A stretch of 64,000 nt of DNA from an uncultured Bacteroidota bacterium. Its GTDB lineage: Bacteria; Bacteroidota; Bacteroidia; Chitinophagales; Chitinophagaceae. The notes under the pieces were generated by a model. The model was not told the DNA's origin. It was given only the letters and a program-made list of their open reading frames with translations, and ran no database searches. The translations under genes and the position numbers were made by a program. This document shows, piece after piece, positions 3,792 to 59,036 of the stretch; within the stretch, counting starts at the first letter, position 1; the number at the start of each line of letters is the position of its first letter. The stretch spans positions 1-64,000 of the forward strand of contig CAILLK010000141.1 in NCBI GenBank assembly GCA_903835005.1. The letters run 5' to 3'.

Positions 3792-6700
3792 TTACCTTAT
3801 CAGCGTCAAATCTCCCTTCATCTCCCTGGTATGATCGCCCTTGTTGCCACATACTATTTTGGCATACCAGTAATAGCTGCCCATTTCGGCAGGGATTCCT
3901 TTGTAGTAACCATCCCATCCCTGGTCTATGTTGGCTGTATTGGTGAGGTTGTATACTTCTTCACCAAAGCGGTTATAAATGGAGAACCTGACAATATACA
4001 TATCACCGGTAAACCGGAAGCGGTAAATATCATTCAGGCCATCGCCGTTGGGGGTAAATGCATTGGGCAGTATCGGGTTGCAGCAATCGTCATAATCCAC
4101 AGTTGAGGTAGATGAATCTGTGCAGTTGTTTGCATCTTTTACCCACACCGTATATTTACCATTTTTCAGGTCGAAAATTCCTGCTGTTGTGGAGGCTTCA
4201 CTATTGCTCCAGAGGTAGGTATAAGGCCCGGTACCGCCCGTTACTGTAGCCATTACAGCACCCTTATTAACAGTTCCGGTGCAGATATTAAGCACCACGC
4301 TGTCGGTAATGTTCAGCGCATCGGGTTGCGTAATATTTACTGTGGTATCGGCCTTGCAGCTCCTGCTGTCGGTAATTGTGATGGTATACTGGCCTGCATA
4401 GAGATCATGATAAACCCCGGAATCCATTTTCTGGGTTGAACTGCCGAGCTGATAATACAATGGTGGCGCGCCCCCTGAAGCATACAGATAAATTGTACCA
4501 TTTTTTGCATTAAAACATAATGGTGGCGTTATCACCACACTGTCTGTAATAATTGGCGGGATACCGGTAAGCGTAAGCGTTGTATCAATACTGCAGCCAT
4601 TGGAATCTTTCACATAAAAAGTATAGATGCCGGCCTGTAAAGTATCAAATCCGTTGCCATTCGAAAAGTTGGTATTATCGTCGGAATAAGCATAAGGCAA
4701 GGTGCCGCCGGAGGCAGTGACTTTTACTGAACCGTCCTTAAACCCGGGGCATGTAGGGTTGAGGGAATCAATGCCGGTAAATTTCAATTGTGCGGGCTGG
4801 GTAAGCACAACAGTTGTATCTGCCGTGCAGCCATGTACATCTTCAACCTGAATGTAGTCTACACCCGCAGTAAGGCCGGTGTAGGTGTTGCTTACCTGGT
4901 AGGGCTGGGAGTTGAGTGCATACATATAAGGCGGCGTGGCGCCGGCTCCGGTTACCGTTACTGATCCGTTGCTGCCGTTGTAGCAGGAAATATTGCTGAC
5001 ACTGACATCTGCAATATAAATTCTTGCCGGTTGGGATATAGTGAATACAGTATCGTGCAGACAGCCGTTGGCATCCTTCACATAAAAAGAATCAGTTCCG
5101 GCCGACAGGCTGCCATAAACTGTAGAGGCTGAATAAACTCCCGTATTGTAAGAGTAGGTATAGGATGGTGTGCCGCCAGTGGCCGAGAGTGTAATACTGC
5201 CATCGTGCAGGCCATAACAGGAAGGTTCTGTAACAGCTACCCCGGGAACGAGTATTCCCGGCTGGCTTACAGAAACCGAAGTATCGAAAGTGCAGCCATT
5301 TGCGTCTTTTACATTAATCACATAAGTCCCTGTAAGCAGGCTGTCGAAAATATGGGCTGTGCCAAACGGCGCTGTGCCTGTAGAAAATGAATAGGGGGAA
5401 GTGCCGCCAGTGCCGGTTACATTAATGATGCCGGTAGCCTGGTTATAGCAGAGCGCAGGCGTAATGATAAAAGTAGCAGAAACAACTAAAGAATCGGTAA
5501 TGATAATTGAAGTGTCGTGAACACAAAGGTTGGCGTCTTTAACATGAAAAATGTAGGTGCCCGCAGCAAGCGGAGTAAATGCAGCAGCAGTACTGTATGC
5601 GCCTGCTCCCACCGCATAGGTATAGCCCGGAGTTCCGCCGGTGGCAGAGAGGGTCACCTTGCCGTTGGCAAGTGTGGCACAGGTTGATTTTATAACAACC
5701 GCCGATGGTATAATAAAGGCAGGTTGAGACAAGGTAAGCGTAGTATCTTTTTCGCAGCCGTTGGCATCCTGAGTATGCAGGGTATAGGTTCCGGCTGCAA
5801 GGCCGCTGAACAGACTTGCAGTGCCATAGGTACCTGTGCCCAGCGCAAAAGTGTAAGGAGCAATGCCCCCCGAAACATGCATGGTCAGCGATCCATCACT
5901 GCCGCCATTGCATGCAGGCTGGTGAAGGCTCACAGAATCAATGCGCACAGGGGTTGGTTGGGTAAGTGTAACTGAGTCGGTATAAATACAGCCATTGGCA
6001 TCCTTTACCCCAACTGCATGTCCTCCGGCAGTAAGTCCTGAAAGGATGCTGGAAGCGCCCCATGTACCACCATCTACTGTATACTGATAAGCAGGAGTAC
6101 CGCCTGTGGCTGTAACAACTATGATACCAGTTGCAGCGCCGTTGCAGTGCACATTGGTATCGGCAGTTGTTATGGTGATTGCCGTGGGCTGGGTAAGGGT
6201 CATTGAAGTATCAAAGAAGCAGTTTTCGGCATCTTTGATGTGCAGGGTATAGGTGCCTGCTGTGAATGTAAACGCATTGGTTGCGCCAAATGGATTGGTA
6301 TTGTAGGCATAGGTATAAGGAGGGCCAAAGCCGCCGGAACCAACCATAGTAACCGTGCCGGAGCCACCATGGCAAAGGATAGGTGATATAGTAAGTGCGG
6401 AATGAATAATTTCAGAATCAACCAGGGTTATGGTTGTGTCTATCTCGCAGGCGTTGGCATTTTTTACATGGAAAGTATAAGAGCCGGCACCCAGTCCGCC
6501 AAACGAATCAACGGCAGTATATGCCCCTGTGCCTATGGCATAGGTATAGGGAGCAATACTATTGTAGGCAGTAATAATCACATAGCCATTGGTAAAGGTG
6601 TTGCACAGCGGCTTGTGAATATCAAAATGCCACAAAATGGGAGTTGCATTGGGTACGGTGATGGTGGTATCCTTTACACAGCTGTTGGCATCCTTTACAT

Positions 6701-8345
6701 GCACTACATAGCTGCCGGGAGTGAGCCCGCTGAATAAACCTGAACCAGAATAGGAGCCGCCGCCTATAGCATAGGTATACGGGGCCAGTCCGCCACTACC
6801 TGTTACGGTAGCTGTGCCTGTGCTTCCCCCGGGGCAAAGTGGTGGTGTGGTAACAACTGCTGCCAAAGGCAAAGGTGGTGAAACAATAGTAATTGTGGTG
6901 TCCACAAAGCAGCCGCTGGGGTTGGTCATTTTAATAGTATATGTTCCGGCTACAAGACTATCGGTTACCATTCCGGTAATACCGGTAAGGGTTCCTATGG
7001 TTACGCCCGCCTGTATGATTTGCATGCTCCATGGGCTGGCAGAACCTCCGGGTGTAACATGAAAAACTGCTTTTGCCGTGCAGGTGGCAGCAGAAACAAG
7101 TGCATAAGTTTCTGTTGGCATGGGCAGTACCGTAACCGTGTATGCAATGGTCTGCTGCCCGGACAGCGGACAACCATCATCGGCGTAGTTGATATAAAAT
7201 ATGTAGTTTCCCGGCGCTACACCGGTAGTATTCCAGGAGAAGGTACCCAGGGGGGCAAGTGTGCCATTGCCAACTATATTAAATGTTGCACCTGCTGGCA
7301 GCCCCGATACCGTCATGGTTATATGGTTGCCTCCGGGATCGGTGGGGTTAATATGAAAAGTAAACGGCCCTACCGACTGGCACAAACTAATGATGGTTCC
7401 GGTTACAGTGCCTGCTGATGCGCCGCTTATACTGCCGTTAGGCGGGATATTGGAGCATGGGGTAATTACTACCACAGTCATTTCGCGCTGGCTGGTACCC
7501 CTGAGTACCCCGGCATGATATTCTTCCACATTATACACCACAAGAGCCTTTTGAAGAATATTGGGTGTAAAAGCCAACTGGCCGGTAGTGCTGCTGAAAG
7601 AGTAAGTGCCTGCGGCTGCGCCGATAGGAGCAGTGGCCGTATAAGGTGCTACATAACTCACTGTGCTACCTGTAGTGCCGTCAATGCCCGGAACAAGGTT
7701 AAATACCAGGCTGTCTCCATTTGGGTCAACGGCTCCGGGATTAAAGTTTGCAGGGATATCAAGGCAATAAAACGGGGTGGGTATGGTGGTATAAACGGCG
7801 TTTGAATTGTTGAATGTCGTATTGTTGAGTGTATCGACAAGCTGTATTGTTGTTCCTGATGCAATATTTGTGATACTGGTACTTCTGCCAGCAGATGGTG
7901 TAGTACCGCCTCCCATATATCCAGTAAAAAGGAAACGCCATACTGCCGACGGGCCCGTAACAGTTACATTTGCTGTATAAACAAATTTCTTTATTCCGGG
8001 GATTGGATTGGACAAACTTGTGCAAGTAGTACTATCAAGGTCTGCGGGACAGACCGGAGTAACTTCTATGCCGTTAATAGGCGCCTGTAGCACCAGGTTT
8101 GCAGTGCTTATGTATGTTCCTCCATTGTAAAGATCTATTTCAGGTTTTGCAGTATCAAGTGAAGGGAAAGCTCCTCCGTGGCAATCGCCATAAACAACCA
8201 GATGAATAGTATAAGTATTGCCCGATACCCAGGTATAATACATGTCAATCCCGAAAATATGCGTAGCCTGCGACGGCACTGCCGAAAGCAGGATGAGTAT
8301 AAATAAAGCCGCCTTTCGCAGCAATGAGGTAACGCTTATAGCCAT
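3792..8345 (-). CDS. Giant SprB-like repeat surface protein with type B T9SS C-terminal domain
   Basis: Secreted protein of 1517 residues. Order: signal peptide (1-27, ending SQA); an N-terminal region typical of large gliding-associated proteins (THIFGIDMYYTW, VVYGDCHG; about 28-300); a cadherin/Ig-like segment (about 305-410); then twelve tandem SprB-type repeats of 76-79 residues (about 498-1422); and a gliding-motility C-terminal domain (about 1423-1517, PNAFTPNGDGLNDIYRF ... GWDGYYKG). The repeat pattern is a Cys, GG(T)xPYTY, GL.AGxY, VKDANGC and DTT..LTQP. The type B C-terminal domain marks export by T9SS and retention or movement at the surface, as for SprB adhesin in Flavobacterium. 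No SprF-like partner gene is adjacent. Function as a mobile adhesin is inferred from family resemblance. Confidence 0.88.
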   Translation of the reverse strand: MAISVTSLLRKAALFILILLSAVPSQATHIFGIDMYYTWVSGNTYTIHLVVYGDCHGGAFPSLDTAKPEIDLYNGGTYISTANLVLQAPINGIEVTPVCPADLDSTTCTSLSNPIPGIKKFVYTANVTVTGPSAVWRFLFTGYMGGGTTPSAGRSTSITNIASGTTIQLVDTLNNTTFNNSNAVYTTIPTPFYCLDIPANFNPGAVDPNGDSLVFNLVPGIDGTTGSTVSYVAPYTATAPIGAAAGTYSFSSTTGQLAFTPNILQKALVVYNVEEYHAGVLRGTSQREMTVVVITPCSNIPPNGSISGASAGTVTGTIISLCQSVGPFTFHINPTDPGGNHITMTVSGLPAGATFNIVGNGTLAPLGTFSWNTTGVAPGNYIFYINYADDGCPLSGQQTIAYTVTVLPMPTETYALVSAATCTAKAVFHVTPGGSASPWSMQIIQAGVTIGTLTGITGMVTDSLVAGTYTIKMTNPSGCFVDTTITIVSPPLPLAAVVTTPPLCPGGSTGTATVTGSGGLAPYTYAIGGGSYSGSGLFSGLTPGSYVVHVKDANSCVKDTTITVPNATPILWHFDIHKPLCNTFTNGYVIITAYNSIAPYTYAIGTGAYTAVDSFGGLGAGSYTFHVKNANACEIDTTITLVDSEIIHSALTISPILCHGGSGTVTMVGSGGFGPPYTYAYNTNPFGATNAFTFTAGTYTLHIKDAENCFFDTSMTLTQPTAITITTADTNVHCNGAATGIIVVTATGGTPAYQYTVDGGTWGASSILSGLTAGGHAVGVKDANGCIYTDSVTLTQPTPVRIDSVSLHQPACNGGSDGSLTMHVSGGIAPYTFALGTGTYGTASLFSGLAAGTYTLHTQDANGCEKDTTLTLSQPAFIIPSAVVIKSTCATLANGKVTLSATGGTPGYTYAVGAGAYSTAAAFTPLAAGTYIFHVKDANLCVHDTSIIITDSLVVSATFIITPALCYNQATGIINVTGTGGTSPYSFSTGTAPFGTAHIFDSLLTGTYVINVKDANGCTFDTSVSVSQPGILVPGVAVTEPSCYGLHDGSITLSATGGTPSYTYSYNTGVYSASTVYGSLSAGTDSFYVKDANGCLHDTVFTISQPARIYIADVSVSNISCYNGSNGSVTVTGAGATPPYMYALNSQPYQVSNTYTGLTAGVDYIQVEDVHGCTADTTVVLTQPAQLKFTGIDSLNPTCPGFKDGSVKVTASGGTLPYAYSDDNTNFSNGNGFDTLQAGIYTFYVKDSNGCSIDTTLTLTGIPPIITDSVVITPPLCFNAKNGTIYLYASGGAPPLYYQLGSSTQKMDSGVYHDLYAGQYTITITDSRSCKADTTVNITQPDALNITDSVVLNICTGTVNKGAVMATVTGGTGPYTYLWSNSEASTTAGIFDLKNGKYTVWVKDANNCTDSSTSTVDYDDCCNPILPNAFTPNGDGLNDIYRFRFTGDMYIVRFSIYNRFGEEVYNLTNTANIDQGWDGYYKGIPAEMGSYYWYAKIVCGNKGDHTREMKGDLTLIR

Positions 8346-8663: not shown

Positions 8664-9200
8664 ATGATTCTTTCTGATTCCCGTATACTCGAAGAAATAG
8701 AAAAAGGTACAATTGTTATTGAACCCTTCGACCGCAAAAACCTGGGTTCCAATTCCTATGATGTGCACCTGGGCAAATACCTGGCTTTATACAACGACGA
8801 AGTACTAGATGCCCGGAAACATAATCTGATCACTCATTTTGAAATACCGCCCGAAGGCTACATACTGCAGCCCGGTCATCTTTACCTGGGTGTAACCGAA
8901 GAATATACCGAATCGCACGCGCATATACCATTCCTTGAAGGCAAATCATCTACCGGCCGCCTGGGCATCAATATCCATGCCACAGCGGGCAAGGGCGATG
9001 TGGGTTTCTGCAATGCCTGGACCCTGGAGATATCCTGTATCAAAAAAGTAAGGGTATATGCCGGAATGCCCATCGGGCAACTGATCTATTTCATGGCCGA
9101 GGGCAATGTACTTAACCCGTACAACAAAAAATCGGGCGCCAAATACGTCGGCAGAACCAATATGCCCGTGGAAAGTATGATGTGGAGGAATGATTTTTAA
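8664..9200 (+). CDS. dcd: dCTP deaminase
   Basis: Cytosolic enzyme that deaminates dCTP to dUTP, feeding dTMP synthesis. The 178-residue length is near the family norm. The N-terminus MILSDSRILEEI is the conserved family start, which fixes the ATG. Further motifs are NLGSNSYDVHLG (27-37), the nucleotide-binding LEGKSSTGRLGI (91-102), and TLEI with the presumed catalytic Glu at 122, followed by GQL and YxGR near the C-terminus. Whether it also hydrolyses dUTP, as in bifunctional relatives, cannot be decided here. It is monocistronic and followed by a repeat-bounded toxin-antitoxin module. Confidence 0.95.
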   Translation: MILSDSRILEEIEKGTIVIEPFDRKNLGSNSYDVHLGKYLALYNDEVLDARKHNLITHFEIPPEGYILQPGHLYLGVTEEYTESHAHIPFLEGKSSTGRLGINIHATAGKGDVGFCNAWTLEISCIKKVRVYAGMPIGQLIYFMAEGNVLNPYNKKSGAKYVGRTNMPVESMMWRNDF

Positions 9201-9271
9201 AGTGCCACGACTCTAATAGTGGATTCAGGAATTTGAACCTCGTTTTCAAACGTAAGGTTCGAAAATTCTGC

Positions 9272-9338
9272 GGCAGCCGTTTCTAAAAAACCACTATTGC
9301 ACGTAAATCAGATCAGCGGTTCACGGACCTGGCGCACG
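9272..9338 (+). repeat. 68-bp palindromic repeat, copy 1 (upstream of YafQ module)
   Basis: Degenerate copy of a repeat family also at 10023-10090, 54969-55036 and 56041-56108. It shares GCAGCCG, TCTAAAAAACCA, AAATCAGATC, GGTTCACGGACC and the end TGGCGCAC with the better-kept copies. Its right flank GTATTCCA is also shared (as ATATTCCA) with the copy at 54969. It precedes the antitoxin start by about 126 bp and lies in the same orientation as copy 2, so the two are direct repeats around the module. Confidence 0.7.
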
Positions 9339-9411
9339 AGTATTCCAGATGCCGATACATAATAAAGGAATATCTTGGTTTTGGTCACCCATTTCCCCTT
9401 GTTTAATTAAC

Positions 9412-9440
9412 TTTGACATAAGAACATTGGTATAGTTTTG
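9412..9440 (+). promoter_or_regulatory. Promoter of the YafQ-type toxin-antitoxin operon
   Basis: TTTG (9412-9415) followed after 17 bp by TAGTTTTG (9433-9440), a good match to the Bacteroidota -33/-7 promoter. The antitoxin ATG is 24 nt further on. The promoter lies inside the repeat-bounded segment, so the module carries its own promoter. Confidence 0.6.
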
Positions 9441-9464
9441 AGTAAAATACCCTAATTTTATACT

Positions 9465-9668
9465 ATGACTTACATTGCCGTAGATGACCATACCACAGAA
9501 GGTAAAAAGCTGGTTGCTTTCCTGAAAACGCAGGAGTATGTGGCAATACTTGAAGAGGCTAATGATACTACAAAAAAGGCCATAAAAGATGTGGATGCCG
9601 GCAAAGTAAAAAAGGTTAAAAATCCGGAAGACTTATTCCGCCAAATTCTTGGCAAACAGCATGTATGA
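9465..9668 (+). CDS. Probable antitoxin of a YafQ/RelE-type module
   Basis: Small charged protein of 67 residues directly upstream of a YafQ-like toxin and overlapping it by 8 nt. The sequence (MTYIAVDDHTTEGKKLVAFL..., then DAGKVKKVKNPEDLFRQIL at the C-terminus) fits a short RelB/DinJ-type antitoxin with a C-terminal toxin-wrapping segment. The first 30 residues would form a dimerisation/DNA-binding part, though no clear ribbon-helix-helix signature is visible. In such operons the antitoxin binds the toxin and represses the shared promoter. The assignment rests mainly on gene order, size and overlap. Confidence 0.7.
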   Translation: MTYIAVDDHTTEGKKLVAFLKTQEYVAILEEANDTTKKAIKDVDAGKVKKVKNPEDLFRQILGKQHV

Positions 9669-9933
9669 AATTGCGTATTCCAACCAGTTCGACAAAGATC
9701 TGAAACTGGTAGCCAAAAGAGGTTATGATATTGACCTGCTCAGGGAAGTCATAAAAGAACTTCATCATTCAGGCAAATTGCATAGCCGTTATCTTACCCA
9801 TAAACTTCACGGAGAATATAAAAATTACCTGGAATGCCATATAAAACCTGATTGGCTGCTTATCTGGAAACAAGACGACACTGCAAAGACAATTTTGTTA
9901 ACCAGGACTGGTAAACATACTGACCTCTTTTAG
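9661..9933 (+). CDS. YafQ-family RelE-like mRNA endonuclease toxin
   Basis: Type II toxin of 90 residues. YafQ-type toxins cut mRNA in the ribosome A site. It aligns along its whole length with YafQ: N-terminal YSNQFDKDLKLVAKRG, then THKLHGEYKNYLECHIKPDWLLIW, then TRTGKHTDLF. The catalytic positions known in YafQ are all present: His50, His60, Asp64, Trp65, His86 and Phe90. A TTG 12 nt upstream would add four residues, but the ATG at 9661 overlaps the antitoxin stop by 8 nt in the usual way and gives the family N-terminus. It appears intact and functional. Confidence 0.88.
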   Translation: MYEIAYSNQFDKDLKLVAKRGYDIDLLREVIKELHHSGKLHSRYLTHKLHGEYKNYLECHIKPDWLLIWKQDDTAKTILLTRTGKHTDLF

Positions 9934-10022
9934 CGTAAATTTTGTAGATCTCAGACGAATCTCCCGTTATTTCCATTGGTTTTCCAAGCTCCCTAAAGAT
10001 ATAAAGCTGATTTTACAGACAT

Positions 10023-10090
10023 TGCTGCCGGGTCTCAAAAACCAATGCAGCCCGAAAATCAGATCCGAAGTTCACAGACCCGGCGCACCA
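10023..10090 (+). repeat. 68-bp palindromic repeat, copy 2 (downstream of YafQ module)
   Basis: The best-kept copy. Its ends are inverted (GCCGGGTCT near the left, AGACCCGGC near the right), so the element can fold into an imperfect hairpin. Its centre CAGCCCGAAAATCAGATCCG and the following AAGTTCA are identical to copy 3 at 54969-55036. It starts 89 bp after the toxin stop codon. Confidence 0.8.
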
Positions 10091-32646: not shown

Positions 32647-32708
32647 TGAGGACAAAACGGAAGAAGCCGAAAATCCGATCAAAGAGTAGGCAGATAAAAT
32701 GATTTTTT

Positions 32709-52888: not shown

Positions 52889-53508
52889 ACTGAATAAGGA
52901 TCAGGATTTAAGGATTTTAAGGATTTCAATGTATCCTGAATTTTATGCCAGCTTACCTGCTGTTTATTCATCGGTTTGCGTGCCTGGGTTGGATTGCTAT
53001 CTTTTATGTGAATTGCACACTGCTCTGAAAAAATATTTTTGCGCACTTTTTTATTGATTTTAAGGTAGTTAGTTCCTGATAATTGCGCATTTCTTCAGTA
53101 AGTGTGCAATTTTGATTTAGGTCATGTTACTTGTTATATTGCTTTCTGCAAAATCCATGTGGTTGCTTCGCCGCATTTTGCTATTATAAGTTGATTTAGA
53201 TTCAGGAACATTTCACTATGATATGATGGCAAGTATATGATAATCAAAATATGGCTTTGGTGGTATTTTCAGCGCAAAGTCGTCTGACTGCTGAAGAAGC
53301 GGTTCTGACGACTTTCAGTCAATATTTCAGCACTGTCATTTTCATAGTGCTTGTGCGCAGCAAATCGTTTACTTGCAATGACCCTCAATTTTTAAAGCAT
53401 AATAAAAGACCATGGTCGTTGCAGATGTCATTTAAGTCAATTCATTGAAAAACAAGCGACATGCAGCCTCAGGAGTTTTGCATAAAGATCCGGATAAGCA
53501 GGGTGATT
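52889..53508. other. Intergenic stretch, nothing functional recognised
   Basis: About 620 bp AT-rich sequence at the left edge of the accessory island. It holds a small degenerate direct repeat of AAGGATTT (52905-52930). A 65-codon open frame at 53251-53448 has no supporting features. No RNA gene or insertion sequence remnant was recognised. Confidence 0.5.
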
Positions 53509-54513: not shown

Positions 54514-54696
54514 TTTGATGTAGTCTAAAGTCTTTAGTATTTAGTCTAAAGTTTATATCAATATATTGTTTGGTAAATTTGAATTTTAAATTATAAATTC
54601 CATTTAGTTCAAAATAAGATTTTCGGGAACAAAGTTCCGGTGGGGATTTGGATTACTGAAAAGAAGTTTTTATGACAGTGCAGTTTTCGTACTGTC

Positions 54697-54716
54697 ATGT
54701 ACCGTATACGGTACAT
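54697..54716. promoter_or_regulatory. 20-bp perfect palindrome (operator-like)
   Basis: ATGTACCGTA followed by its exact complement TACGGTACAT. It overlaps the right arm of another inverted repeat, ATGACAGT (54672-54679) / ACTGTCAT (54691-54698). It is the sort of site bound by a dimeric regulator. It lies in the 646-bp gap upstream of the HTH gene; the rest of that gap is AT-rich with a degenerate AGTCTAAAGT repeat at 54525-54555 and the repeat copy at its right end. Confidence 0.5.
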
Positions 54717-54968
54717 CATGTAAATTTTTTCGGGGCTAATGGGTTGGGGATTATTGCTTTATAGGTTATTGATACCTTCGGATTTTCGCAAGTGCCCACA
54801 TAGTGGGATTTTGTTATGGGTTTTGGGAGATATTATGGTGAATCATTATTGATATTATTGTTTCTTTAGTTTGCAAACAAAAATGTTTGTATAAATTTTT
54901 GTTTGTGTAAAATTATGTTGTCGTTTTTTCTTGTTGTTTTATATTGATCTGTATAAAAATTGGAATAT

Positions 54969-55036
54969 TGGTGCGCCAGGGTCATGAACTTCGGATCTGA
55001 TTTTCGGGCTGTAGTAGTTTTTGAGAACTGGCAGCG
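54969..55036 (-). repeat. 68-bp palindromic repeat, copy 3 (downstream of PemK-like module)
   Basis: In minus-strand orientation it matches copy 2 (10023-10090) throughout, including TCTCAAAAAC, an identical 27-base centre, and the end TGGCGCACCA. It starts 123 bp after the stop of the PemK-like gene and lies in the same orientation relative to that gene as copy 2 does to the YafQ-type toxin. An 8-bp inverted repeat AATCAGGA / TCCTGATT (55040-55068) lies next to it. Confidence 0.8.
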
Positions 55037-55159
55037 ACAAATCAGGATTTCGGCTTTTTATCCTGATTAAGATAAGTAAACCAGAATGGTTAAAGATATG
55101 GAGAGGACAAAGAAAGAAACATATACTATTTCAATTCGTATTGCTGTGCTGCGTAAACC

Positions 55160-55513
55160 TCAAAAATTGACACCGAAAATCTTCTTATTGAGTTCTTTTA
55201 TCATTGCATGGTAAGCTTCCATCTTCATTTGGTTTACAGGAGTACCAATGATGCAGGAACAAGGTAAAAAATTGATTAAATACAGACGAACTCTTGATTT
55301 TTTTTCTTTCAGAGGTTTGAGAAACATTGTATCATTGAGCGGGAAGCTGAATTCATTAGCCGGGTCGAAATAAAGCGAATCTGTAATCATTATCCCAACA
55401 AACTGATCTTCTTCTTCATTCACTTCCTCCGGGGAAAGCACAATGACTAAATGATTTTCTTTAGTATTGGAGCCAAATACGACATTAATAACATCCCGTC
55501 TATTTATTTTCAT
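55160..55513 (-). CDS. PemK/MazF-like toxin candidate
   Basis: Protein of 117 residues. The sequence follows the PemK/MazF (SH3-like) pattern: an opening INRRDVINVVFGSN, then HLVIVLSPEEVNEEEDQFVGIMIT, then a FSFPLND turn and KPLKEKKSRVRLYLI. The C-terminus is a helix (MEAYHAMIKELNKKIF). MazF-type proteins are sequence-specific mRNA cleaving toxins; here the classic catalytic Arg/Thr cannot be placed with certainty. It overlaps the upstream 145-aa gene by 14 nt, so the two are translationally coupled, like toxin-antitoxin pairs. Family assignment is moderately sure. Confidence 0.6.
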   Translation of the reverse strand: MKINRRDVINVVFGSNTKENHLVIVLSPEEVNEEEDQFVGIMITDSLYFDPANEFSFPLNDTMFLKPLKEKKSRVRLYLINFLPCSCIIGTPVNQMKMEAYHAMIKELNKKIFGVNF

Positions 55514-55937
55514 GAACCGGTTCTTTGTACTTATTTAAGTTCGCAAGAATAGCAGAAGAAGATGCAGCAAACATGTTTTTCTTGAGCACATTATATTTCC
55601 GTTTATGCTCATATATTTCCTCAATTTCAGAAATGGTTTTTAGTGAAATTTCAATACTCTTGTTTATTGAGACAAGATTTAAGTTTTGCGAATTCTCGAT
55701 GGCTTTTTTTGCAGACGAAAACATGGTTTTAACCTTATTTAAGTTCTTTTCATCTCTTTCGGCAATAGCAATTTCATTCGCCAATACCAGGTCTTTAAAG
55801 CCTACCAATTTTAAAGCCATGTCACTATAAATTCTTGACGGGAACTTTATTACATGAATTAATTTGCCTAAAAACGGGAACCTGAACGATTCCATCCAAA
55901 GCCATGAACTTGTTGGTATTGATAAATCTACATTCAT
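55500..55937 (-). CDS. Unknown partner (possible antitoxin) of the PemK-like gene
   Basis: Protein of 145 residues from the ATG at 55937; an in-frame TTG nine bases upstream overlaps the promoter element and is unlikely. I do not recognise the family. The first third contains aromatic residues (TSSWLWMESFRFPFLGKLIHVIKF). The rest is helical and charged, probably a coiled coil (about 60-130, EIAIAERDEKNLNKVKTMF and ISEIEEIYEHKRKYNVLKK). No DNA-binding motif is evident. Because it overlaps the PemK-like gene and shares a repeat-bounded segment with it, an antitoxin role is suggested by context only. Confidence 0.65.
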   Translation of the reverse strand: MNVDLSIPTSSWLWMESFRFPFLGKLIHVIKFPSRIYSDMALKLVGFKDLVLANEIAIAERDEKNLNKVKTMFSSAKKAIENSQNLNLVSINKSIEISLKTISEIEEIYEHKRKYNVLKKNMFAASSSAILANLNKYKEPVHENK

Positions 55938-55943
55938 AAAAGA

Positions 55944-55951
55944 CAAATTTA
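55944..55951 (-). promoter_or_regulatory. -7 promoter element of the PemK-like module, near leaderless
   Basis: Reads TAAATTTG on the minus strand (TAnnTTTG) and ends six bases before the ATG at 55937. The module therefore carries its own promoter within the repeat-bounded segment. Confidence 0.5.
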
Positions 55952-56040
55952 CAAAAAATGAGTTGAAAAAACGATGATTTAATGTGCTACTAAGCTTTCA
56001 TTAATTGTATCTTGTATTTTTTACGAAGGGGCATCATCGT

Positions 56041-56108
56041 TGTGTAACGCCGGGTCCTGCAACAATTGTTCTGAAATTAGGATGTAATGGTTTTTGAGAC
56101 CCGGCTGC
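56041..56108 (-). repeat. 68-bp palindromic repeat, copy 4 (upstream of PemK-like module)
   Basis: In minus-strand orientation it shares GCAGCCGGGTCTCAAAAACC at one end and GGACCCGGCG at the other with copy 2, while its centre has diverged. The terminal inverted repeat (GCCGGGTC / GACCCGGC) is intact. It lies about 100 bp upstream of the 145-aa gene start, in direct orientation to copy 3. The surrounding gap 55952-56258 holds nothing else that I recognise. Confidence 0.75.
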
Positions 56109-56258
56109 GACATCATAAGATTTCAGCAAGAAATAAAACTGTGGAGACTCGCCTGATGCTTAAATTTCAATGCGCCTTACTCAGTAAAATATATAATTAT
56201 ATTGCAATGAGCGTTTCTGCAATTTTATCCATATTTTAGCAAAAGTAATTAGATATTT

Positions 56259-57998
56259 ATGAAAGGAAGTCCCCATGGTAAATTGAACATTGAAATTGAA
56301 GGCAAATCTTTCAATACGAACAATGGTGCGAAAAATTATGAAGACGCTTTTAAATTCTTGTATGAACAGGGATTATTGAAATCTACTATTTTGTCCGATT
56401 TTCCTAATCTTGTTAAGAAAGCGAAACTGGATTTTACCTCAAAAGCTGATATAGAAGATGCCAAGCCATTAGATGAAAACGAAACATTATGGATATCGAC
56501 TCATGGCTCTAATGAAACTAATAAAGGAAAAATTGAAAAACTTTTAAGAAGGTACAATATAAATAGTAAGGTAGAAATTGTACAAAATGAAACAACAATT
56601 AGAAAAAAGAATAAGGAAAATGCAATACCGGATGATGAGTATAAAGAACAAATTGATGCTGATGGAGAAATTGGTGTTGCAAATTTCTGGTGGCTTAACG
56701 CCAACCCGAAAATATGGACATTTGACCGGGTAAATATTGGTGAGAAGGAGTGGTATAGTACCCACAATGATGACAATAACAAAAGAAGGATTTACAAAAA
56801 CTTTGAAGCGGTTAAACCCGGTGATTTAATGATTGGGTATGAGAGTTCTCCAAACCAACAAATCAAGGCGATTCTTCAAATAACAAAAGGGATTTACAAT
56901 GCAACAGAAAGAGATAATAAAGAAGAAATTGAGTTTGAATTAATTGAGAAAATTCCAATTCCAGTTGATTGGAATGAGATAGAAAAAAATCCCGGTTTGC
57001 AAAATTGTGAGGTAATCACGACCTATCAGCACCAGGGTAGTTTATTCCGTTTAACAAAAGATGAATACAATATAATAAGAGGACTTATTGACAGTAAGAA
57101 TAATAGCAACCCTCAAATTGATGAAATCAACAAAATACCTTACAATTTTGCAGAAGATGCTGACAAGCCATTTATAAGCGAAGCAGATTTTTTACAGGCA
57201 GTTTCTTTACTTAAACGAAAGAAGAACATCATTTTGCAAGGGCCTCCGGGAGTTGGTAAAACATTCATTGCCCGGAAGCTGGCTTATGAGGTAATGCATG
57301 AAGTGAAGGATGCCAATATTGAAATGGTGCTGTTTCATCAATCATACAGCTATGAAGATTTTATTCAGGGGTTGAGGCCGAATAAGGATGGAAAGTTTGA
57401 TTTAAGAAATGGTATTTTTTATACCTTCTGCAAGAAGGCATTAAGGTATCCTGCTGAAAAATTCTTTTTTATCATTGATGAAATCAACCGGGGAAATCTG
57501 AGTAAAGTTTTTGGAGAACTTATGATGTTGATTGAAGCAGACAAACGTAAAGAAAAATACGCACTGAAACTGACTTATGCCGAAGATGAACAAAAATTTC
57601 ATGTTCCCGGAAACCTTTACATCATCGGTACTATGAATACTGCCGACCGGTCGCTGGCTATTGTAGACTATGCGCTGAGAAGGCGTTTTGCATTCTATCC
57701 ATTGCACCCGGATTATGGTGAAACATTCAGTGCTTTTCTTTTGGAAAAAGGGGTAACTGAAAGCCTTATTGAACATATTTGCAGGTCAGTAAAAAGTGTC
57801 AATAAAAAAATAACTGAGGACAATAATTTAGGCGCAGGTTTCCAGATCGGGCATAGTTATTTCTGTTTGCCCAATGCAGATAATGAGGACGCATGGTGGA
57901 ACGATATTCTCAGCTTTGAATTAGCACCGCTAATTGAAGAGATATGGTTTGATGATCTTGACAAGGCGAAAGAGATGATTTCAATTCTTACGAGATAA
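56259..57998 (+). CDS. mcrB: McrB-like AAA+ GTPase with N-terminal EVE domain (type IV restriction)
   Basis: Motor/specificity subunit of a McrBC-type restriction system, 579 residues. An N-terminal region of unknown fold (1-120) is followed by an EVE (PUA-like) domain, about 139-275 (VANFWWLNANPKIWTF ... VKPGDLMIGYESSPN), a fold that reads modified bases. The AAA+ domain (about 300-579) has Walker A GPPGVGKT (328-335), Walker B IIDEIN (405-410) and the McrB signature MNTADRS (459-465), then the arginine-rich YALRRRF. McrB relatives use GTP to translocate on modified DNA. The McrC nuclease gene begins three bases after the stop. Confidence 0.92.
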   Translation: MKGSPHGKLNIEIEGKSFNTNNGAKNYEDAFKFLYEQGLLKSTILSDFPNLVKKAKLDFTSKADIEDAKPLDENETLWISTHGSNETNKGKIEKLLRRYNINSKVEIVQNETTIRKKNKENAIPDDEYKEQIDADGEIGVANFWWLNANPKIWTFDRVNIGEKEWYSTHNDDNNKRRIYKNFEAVKPGDLMIGYESSPNQQIKAILQITKGIYNATERDNKEEIEFELIEKIPIPVDWNEIEKNPGLQNCEVITTYQHQGSLFRLTKDEYNIIRGLIDSKNNSNPQIDEINKIPYNFAEDADKPFISEADFLQAVSLLKRKKNIILQGPPGVGKTFIARKLAYEVMHEVKDANIEMVLFHQSYSYEDFIQGLRPNKDGKFDLRNGIFYTFCKKALRYPAEKFFFIIDEINRGNLSKVFGELMMLIEADKRKEKYALKLTYAEDEQKFHVPGNLYIIGTMNTADRSLAIVDYALRRRFAFYPLHPDYGETFSAFLLEKGVTESLIEHICRSVKSVNKKITEDNNLGAGFQIGHSYFCLPNADNEDAWWNDILSFELAPLIEEIWFDDLDKAKEMISILTR

Positions 57999-58001
57999 TC
58001 T

Positions 58002-59036
58002 ATGCAGATACCGATAGAAAATATATACTACCTACTTTGCTATGCCTGGAACAAACTGGATGAAAAAGACCGCGTATCTATTGCAATTGATGACAAAACG
58101 GAATTACTTGACCTGTTTGCAAAGGTGCTTATCAATGCCAGCAGAATGCTGCTGAAAAGAGGTATTGATAAAAGCTATGTTGATCATACAACTGATATTG
58201 CTGGAGTAAAGGGCAAACTGGAAATGAGTCAGACCTTAAAAAGCAATCTGCTTTTTAAACAAAGAACGGTCTGCACCTTCGATGAATTTTCGGCGAATAT
58301 TTTATCTAACCAGATTCTTGTTTCTAGCATTTACCGGTTATTAAAGACAAAGGAACTTGACAAAGAATTAAAGGCTGAATTATGGATTTTGGTGAGGATG
58401 TTTGCAGGTATTGATCAGATTGAACTCAAGCCCTCATTGTTTAAACAGGTAAAAATCAACAGGAACAATCACTTCTATGGTTTCATCATGAATGTGTGCC
58501 AGATCATTCTGGAAAACACCCTGCCAACTGAAGATAAGGGAGCTTATAAATTTGCTGACTTTACAAGAGATGAAAAGAAAATGAACCAGCTTTTTGAAGC
58601 GTTTGTCAGGAATTTTTATAACCTTGAAGTAAGTAAATTCAAAACAAGAAGAGAGAATATTAAGTGGCGGGTATCAGGAATCGAAGAGTCGTTGCAATAT
58701 TTGCCTCAAATGGAGACAGATATCACCTTGGAAAATGACACTGAGAAAATCATCATTGATGCGAAATATTATAAAGACACAATGACAGTAAATTATGGCA
58801 AGGAAAAAATAAAATCTGCTAACCTTTATCAGCTTTTCAGTTACCTGCTTAATCAGCAAAATCAAGACCCAAAAACAATCAATGCTACCGGAATCCTGCT
58901 ATACCCTACAACAGAGCAGGAATATAATCTTGATTTCAAGTACCAGAGCCATAATATCCAGATCAGAACTGTGAACCTGAATACAAACTGGAAGCATATT
59001 TCTGCACGATTAAAGCAGATTGTCGAGGTGAATTGA
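58002..59036 (+). CDS. mcrC: McrC-like endonuclease subunit
   Basis: Protein of 344 residues matching McrC along its length, starting with the typical IPIENIYYLLCYAWN. The nuclease centre of the PD-(D/E)xK type is near the C-terminus: Asp240 in METDITL and Asp253-Ala-Lys255 in IIIDAKYYK. An N-terminal beta-rich region contacts McrB and stimulates its GTPase. With the EVE-McrB encoded three bases upstream it should cut DNA carrying modified bases, such as phage DNA. Both catalytic acidic residues and the Lys are present, so the system looks intact. Confidence 0.92.
   Translation: MQIPIENIYYLLCYAWNKLDEKDRVSIAIDDKTELLDLFAKVLINASRMLLKRGIDKSYVDHTTDIAGVKGKLEMSQTLKSNLLFKQRTVCTFDEFSANILSNQILVSSIYRLLKTKELDKELKAELWILVRMFAGIDQIELKPSLFKQVKINRNNHFYGFIMNVCQIILENTLPTEDKGAYKFADFTRDEKKMNQLFEAFVRNFYNLEVSKFKTRRENIKWRVSGIEESLQYLPQMETDITLENDTEKIIIDAKYYKDTMTVNYGKEKIKSANLYQLFSYLLNQQNQDPKTINATGILLYPTTEQEYNLDFKYQSHNIQIRTVNLNTNWKHISARLKQIVEVN

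Follow-up and report, generated by a model that had tools for sequence, protein, structure and literature searches.

Toxin–antitoxin-like gene pairs between direct copies of a dispersed hairpin repeat in a Bacteroidota genome

Genes and repeat copies in the window

The window analysed here is a 64,000-nt stretch on contig C141 of genome G000, hereafter the own genome. Four copies of one repeat, designated R, were found in it (Table 1). Copies 1 and 2 bracket a YafQ toxin–antitoxin (TA) pair, and copies 3 and 4 bracket a PemK-like gene with its partner, both as originally predicted. The orientation relative to the modules was also confirmed to be alike at the two sites: both modules are transcribed opposite to the strand of the bracketing copies, so that all four copies point against module transcription. 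The 27-base core ascribed to copies 2 and 3 proved to be an exact match, located at 54985 (+) and 10048 (−). Gene conversion between copies 2 and 3 would be one possible source of this 27-mer; the identity of copy 2 is 84.3% with copy 3 and, nearly as high, 81.6% with its counterpart in the sister genome G020. The claim that such an arrangement is hard to explain by chance stands for the repeats themselves, which lie far beyond chance, but not for the shared orientation, which is a 1-in-2 coincidence because each pair is direct. A BLAST search of the whole own genome with DNA of the copy-3/4 region, independent of the covariance model (CM), detected copy 2 (E 3.7e-15) and seven more places; copy 1 was not recovered by this search.

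Table 1. Repeat copies and neighbouring genes in the window (E-values and CM bit scores of copies 1–4 come from a CM of which these copies were training rows; R2 is the 50-copy model)
Feature	Position	Strand	Evidence or comment
Repeat R copy 1	9243..9337	−	CM 67.5 bits, E 5.8e-14; model R2 60.2 bits at 9249-9337
67-aa gene, overlapping YafQ from upstream	9465..9668	+	antitoxin by position; without Pfam family
YafQ toxin, 90 aa	9661..9933	+	Pfam PF15738 102.9 bits; NCBIfam RelE_StbE 73 bits (cut-off 27.9)
Repeat R copy 2	9998..10088	−	CM match, E 5.8e-20; 5' flank homologous with same-site repeat of G020
HTH DNA-binding protein gene, 334 aa	53509..54513	−	dispersed family related to phrog_4151
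Region U, upstream of HTH gene	54620..54853		recurs elsewhere, at times just before an R
Repeat R copy 3	54971..55062	+	CM 97.1 bits, E 1.7e-21; R2 91 bits
PemK/MazF-like toxin candidate, 117 aa	55160..55513	−	Pfam PF02452 (PemK_toxin) 21 bits (curated cut-off 23.1)
Partner gene, overlapping PemK-like gene	55500..55946	−	148 aa from TTG, 131 aa from ATG
Repeat R copy 4	56045..56135	+	CM 79.1 bits, E 6.5e-17; R2 75.6 bits
McrB-like protein, EVE + AAA domains, immediately after copy 4	56259..57998	+	Pfam AAA_5, EVE; NCBIfam McrB 305.8 bits, below the cut-off of 637
McrC-like protein	58002..59036	+	NCBIfam NF007277 355.3 bits (cut-off 338)

Judged from its family scores, the YafQ assignment is solid. 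The label 'PemK-like' would be a fair but weak one, resting on a match below the curated cut-off; a PDB sequence search with this 117-aa protein gave no match, and its single-sequence structure prediction was useless (pLDDT 38.9). For the 148-aa partner no family was detected in Pfam, NCBIfam or PADLOC. The names dcd-like, PurH-like, SecA-like, AccC-like, M16-like and NuoN-like, used for other genes, are presumed from recognition of their sequences and not from family searches. By sequence, the HTH gene can be assigned to the group of phrog_4151, a phage DNA-binding protein family. Besides the window gene and phrog_4151 of Bacteroides phages, this family was observed at L074 (463-1209), at L078 (6594-7328) and at L149-L154. 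Genome G028 has six copies, four of them no more than about 1.5 kb from the end of a contig.

Other repeats often stand before R, namely U, X and a T of about 115 bp. Several copies of T per locus, mixed with R, were found at L009, L010, L011, L012 and L013. Among the U matches listed for the own genome, four lie outside the window; those on C135 and C73 adjoin an R, and those on C67 and C84 do not. U also stands before R in the window and at L066, L070 and L078, a count that is biased since these loci were selected for their R. The order HTH-U-R was observed in the window, at L074 and at L078; in G028, HTH-U stands at six places where no R was detected.

Structure and distribution of the repeat

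R consists of a core of about 92 nt and a looser 3' extension, and is predicted to fold into a bulged stem closing a loop of about 40 nt. A stem of 10 pairs, one unpaired base near its foot and an inner helix of 4 pairs were kept on 50 copies. In the 50-copy alignment, which was made with a model and hence favours the structure, 83.1% of the cells were paired, and the value fell to 37.5-42.1% when the partner was slid by one base. Changes on both sides of a pair were counted in 41 cells against 17.0 in shuffles, none of 500 shuffles being as high. The extrahelical column inside the stem was occupied by a letter in 48 of the 50 copies, a T in 38. Stem 1 contained 24 G-U versus 25 A-C cells, and the inner helix, the 3' side of which hardly varies, 36 versus 1. 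As G-U is not above A-C in stem 1, nothing marks the folded molecule as an RNA of this strand.

Two covariance models were used, R1 built from 15 copies and R2 from 50. R1 matched the own genome at 35 places up to E 1, of which 30 were at E ≤0.0012. Three matches (C74, C124 and C76:94254; E 0.03-0.66) were excluded, leaving 32 own copies in a table of 50 from three genomes, to which G020 and G028 contributed 9 each; L068 6481, L075 and L078 7653 among the 50 are weak or partial (E up to 0.003). One further R, in L157, was detected later and lies outside the loci tabulated below. In a CM search of 60 genomes (the own genome, 34 of the same genus and 25 more distant), R was found in three, the own genome, G020 and G028. 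Within the genus it was thus present in 3 of 35 genomes and absent from the other 32 under stricter filters, by which weak matches are lost. A class-wide scan with R2 detected R in one of 395 genomes, the own one, at a low sensitivity set by scoring 10 candidates per genome. Stretches fitting a DNA pattern in Halieaceae, in Chitinophaga pinensis and in an alphaproteobacterium were tested with the CM, and none of the three was confirmed. Viral contigs gave no exact pattern match to R, and plasmids no match for copy 3. Rfam at gathering threshold gave no family at the place of R, and its sole match in the window was a DUF805b RNA motif (RF02914) at 32657-32692. Among the literature titles searched, none refers to a repeat of this kind; its absence from print is not proved by this. 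Copies of R in the own genome were enriched within 1.6 kb of contig ends (12 of 30, 9% expected, p 4e-6), as expected if repeat mosaics break the assembly. Judged from these searches, R is most likely a new family of dispersed intergenic repeats, restricted to the genus within the searched collections.

Orientation, gene content and plasticity of the repeat loci

We then tabulated 36 loci, 23 from the own genome, 6 from G020 and 7 from G028. Neighbouring copies less than 5 kb apart were direct in all 13 pairs (8 own, 3 in G020 and 2 in G028; p 0.0002), two of which have weak or partial copies as partners. The agreement was maintained in 9 of 9 pairs (p 0.004) after tandem and paralogous pairs were removed by hand; plain tandem duplications were seen at L009 (15953/16828, 93% over 819 bp) and L085. 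An ORF was enclosed between copies less than 5 kb apart at 5 of the 36 loci, L010, with outer copies 11 kb apart, not being counted as enclosing. The enclosed modules are the YafQ pair, the PemK-like pair, a CHAT-like gene (L009), an HTH gene (L078) and a low-scoring 173-aa ORF (L068); four run against R and one along it. The nearest genes showed no strand bias with respect to R, with 12 on the same and 17 on the opposite strand at the 5' side and 18 and 15 at the 3' side. Many neighbours of R are ordinary genes by eye or by Pfam, for instance those for DMRL synthase and FolB (both Pfam). The CHAT-like gene of L009 (10596-15113) codes for a 1505-aa protein with a C-terminal CHAT match of 14.7 bits (cut-off 24) and no PADLOC match. 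At L069, a small gene followed by an acetyltransferase-like gene, recognised by eye, occurs twice around an R (5667-7791 and 9055-9824).

The gene content near R was compared with that far from it, using small genes of 50-180 aa from a simple gene caller (near, ≤1 kb, 32 genes; far, >2 kb, 64 genes). TA pairs within 1 kb of R were YafQ, PemK-like, PIN (L082) and RelE (L088), and those far from R were two ParE pairs. With each TA pair counted as one unit, the frequencies were 4/28 near and 2/62 far (p 0.07); per gene they were 8/32 and 4/64 (p 0.018). The Pfam search covered 25 near genes out of 32 and, from the 64 far genes, 10 that looked TA-like or small by eye, so that TA genes far from R may be undercounted. 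Without the two seed modules the difference was 2/26 versus 2/62 units (p 0.58), with p 0.24 per gene. A lone Unstab_antitox and a DUF433 protein in the far set and a DUF2204 nucleotidyltransferase in the near set were left uncounted as pairs.

R tends to lie on the G-rich strand, at 27 of 36 loci on raw counts (p 0.004) and at 23 of 32 (p 0.02) when the bias was taken from the third codon position in genes that lie away from R. Replication-strand bias was rejected as the cause of like-oriented neighbours: C141 and C73 hold R both ways, about 45 and 52 kb apart, and for this reason the weak skew bias does not explain the strict local agreement. The check proposed with the original prediction was carried out with the CM, the loci of three genomes being tabulated, and the surplus of small two-gene modules with one set orientation that it called for was not shown. 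The outcome comes close to the one named there as a refutation, ordinary neighbours and no orientation bias.

Comparison of orthologous sites indicated differences in what lies between the repeats. In the dcd-sg118 interval of the dcd-like locus, the YafQ pair is present in the own genome and a 244-aa HTH gene in G020, both between repeats, and about 96 bp stand there in G028. The own genome and G020 share the flanks of this locus, with 96% identity in a 178-aa gene and 91% over 1079 aa in the far gene. Over 564 nt, which comprise the 5' flank and R up to its nucleotide 64, the R at L078 6142 of G020 and copy 2 are homologous (78%), suggesting descent from a single R. At the PurH-like locus (L009/L081), which is conserved as far as a 504-aa gene, G020 next has a single R, and the own genome has R, the CHAT-like gene and three more R in succession; the R that precedes the CHAT-like gene has a 5' flank common to both genomes (78% over 119 nt). 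L071 and L083 carry a like-directed R upstream of the same gene, with different neighbours.

Gene order was examined at few loci and in fragmented genomes, where contig breaks can mimic synteny breaks. In each of 10 relatives, the genes that flank R at L067 fall on separate contigs; in G004 they lie deep within long ones. At L068, both sides were found in 6 of 10 relatives, on separate contigs in every case; in the other 4 a single side was found. G020 and G002 each have the genes left and right of the copy-3/4 island on two separate contigs. At this site in G020, an R was found 362 bp beyond the M16-like gene, in the direction opposite to copy 3. Between the two R loci of the window, the order of G020:C72 is kept over about 38 kb (14.3-34.0 and 48.5-52.9 kb by comparison, 34.0-48.5 kb by fitting distances). 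A gene-sized segment of about 1 kb at window positions 50.6-51.6 kb is missing at the same place in G020, with no R there, and no R was detected at a synteny break near 13.9-14.3 kb. From these two changes it follows that R is not needed for alteration of gene content or order.

At L009, L078 and L068, the two framing copies are mutual best matches over R and/or the 3' flank, here called the pair signature. The homology extends from R position 5 to 147 for the L009 pair and from position 4 to 232 for the L078 pair (copies 6142 and 7930, separated by a partial third one). At L009 and L078, the 5' flank of the outer copy instead matches the orthologous locus.

Explanations and comparison with known systems

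Taking these observations altogether, we consider it moderately probable that R is a genus-restricted intergenic repeat within larger mosaics of T, U and X, and that the mosaics are recombination hot spots for accessory DNA. TA pairs, the HTH gene, the CHAT-like gene and perhaps McrBC would be gained, lost and exchanged at the mosaics, and gene order would break there. The most likely step would be recombination between direct copies of R with the 3' extension: a circle inserted in a Campbell-like manner would give R-module-R, and loss of the module would leave one R. The pattern at L009 and L078 could arise from entry of a circle by a single crossover in R and its 3' flank, or from a long duplication at entry. 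As the cause of the changes we infer recombination at R, of RecA type and with help from the hairpin; identity within the five framing pairs, 74-90%, is low if a RecA exchange was recent. The covarying hairpin, the distribution in 3 of 35 genomes, the direct pairs, the plastic orthologous sites, the pair signature at L009, L078 and L068, the enrichment at contig ends and the breaks as opposed to about 38 kb of conserved order all speak for hot-spot mosaics. Against them stand the YafQ and PemK-like modules of the window, in which the pair signature is absent and to which the entry mechanism would therefore apply by analogy, the gene differences free of R, and the opposite R at the copy-3/4 site of G020. 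Insertions and breaks at R may also reflect only intergenic sites that are tolerant of them.

Several of the same observations can be read differently. If R was a REP- or MITE-like element, spread by an HUH (Y1) transposase on single-stranded DNA, the genes between copies would be incidental. The imperfect, bulged palindrome in dispersed copies, the preference for the G-rich strand (27/36; 23/32), as if insertion followed the replication strand, and the two Y1_Tnp genes of the own genome (L094 and L095) are in agreement with such a spread. However, R was absent within about 1.5 kb on either side of both genes, no clean empty or filled site with fixed ends was found, and neighbouring copies are direct and not alternating. 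A 40-nt bulged hairpin distinct from R was detected at window 53276-53315, L095 1100-1139 and L156 5049-5088 (identical or 95%), one such hairpin lying 334 bp upstream of the longer Y1 gene; it is probably the REP of this RAYT-like gene, and because of its position R is not evidently that REP. The flanks of the Y1 genes in the own genome thus gave no support to a RAYT-driven REP. For G020 and G028 the HUH explanation was kept, because a Bacteroidetes subclass of HUH proteins is described with genes flanked by atypical structures that have copies elsewhere (PMC6006769). Overall we regard it as rather unlikely. The reading of R as a gene for a structured RNA, or as a regulatory RNA, with upstream leaders of its own would agree with the covariation of the stem and with the recurrence of U and X upstream at roughly constant distance. 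Against it speak stem 1, in which G-U is not in excess of A-C, the variety of unrelated leaders and the lack of an Rfam family there at gathering threshold, and it appears very improbable.

R as the site of a dedicated cassette system would imply a hairpin with an extrahelical base, recognised attC-like by a recombinase, and modules moving as circles with one R. Such a system would account for the preservation of the bulged hairpin by compensatory change, for adjacent copies being always direct, for different modules and for single R versus R-gene-R at orthologous sites, and for the start of the L009 and L078 pair homology at the hairpin foot, R position 4-5. Most of the 36 loci are without an enclosed module, the enclosed genes do not share one orientation, and the TA enrichment depends on the seed modules; these points, together with the lack of attC boxes and integrase given below, make a dedicated system unlikely. 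Its more specific form, an unrecognised Bacteroidota cassette site at which a putative recombinase moves TA and defence genes as R-module circles among many sites and not within one array, is less likely still. Of the shared cassette-like mechanism originally proposed, one homologous structured family, direct neighbours, module swap and R versus R-gene-R were borne out, and the layout (5/36), the strand bias and the TA excess were not. The two TA pairs between copies of R are real, yet they have the look of guests at recombination-prone sites and are not proof of a dedicated cassette system. A caution can be drawn from this case: two repeat-framed TA pairs resembled cassettes, yet the pattern is not borne out by the genome-wide table.

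The palindrome of integron attC sites is bounded by two boxes, R'' (RYYYAAC) and R' (GTTRRRY). Both boxes were found in none of 50 copies of R, AAC being present in 8 flanks and GTT in 7. In the 99% complete draft of the own genome, no match to the integron integrase model TIGR02249 exceeded the cut-off, and weak hits were also obtained in 14 of 14 control genomes. Integron membership was rejected on these two counts. R also differs from integrons in that a common gene orientation is lacking and the modules are few. The dif site is much shorter than R. Pdif/Xer modules of Acinetobacter plasmids, which end in XerC- and XerD-type half-sites, resemble the R loci in having TA modules between repeated sites. 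With attC, as described in PMC2727003, R shares a folded imperfect palindrome, an extrahelical base and direct copies around some modules.

Like REP/BIME elements with TnpAREP (RAYT), R forms dispersed extragenic bulged hairpins. The foot of a REP palindrome bears a tag, GTAG or CGTC (PMC3733652). Copies of a REP element flank its tnpA(REP) gene. REP elements differ from R in that neighbouring repeats alternate in direction in BIMEs (PMC2817692), whereas R neighbours are direct and the RAYT-like gene of the own genome lies near another hairpin.

The closest known system is that of the Neisseria NIME and minimal mobile elements (MME), with dispersed short repeats, intergenic mosaics and rearrangement boundaries, and, as at one of our loci, whole-gene modules that vary among related genomes between one pair of conserved genes (PMC3898611, PMC9778887). 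Incorporation of MME proceeds by homologous recombination alone. In the dcd-sg118 interval, the one locus given here in full, different modules were indeed found between the same conserved flanks. The NIME, made up of RS elements and dRS3 repeats, number 80-288 per Neisseria genome (PMC3898611), versus about 30 copies of R in the own genome. From what is described there, R differs in sequence and phylum, is a long-loop bulged hairpin and not a 20-bp dRS3 around RS elements, and can itself frame a module. If the hot-spot reading is true, the mosaics of R would be a Bacteroidota counterpart of the Neisseria repeat mosaics, in which structured repeats mark the entry of TA and defence genes, and would provide a model for finding such entry sites in other genomes.
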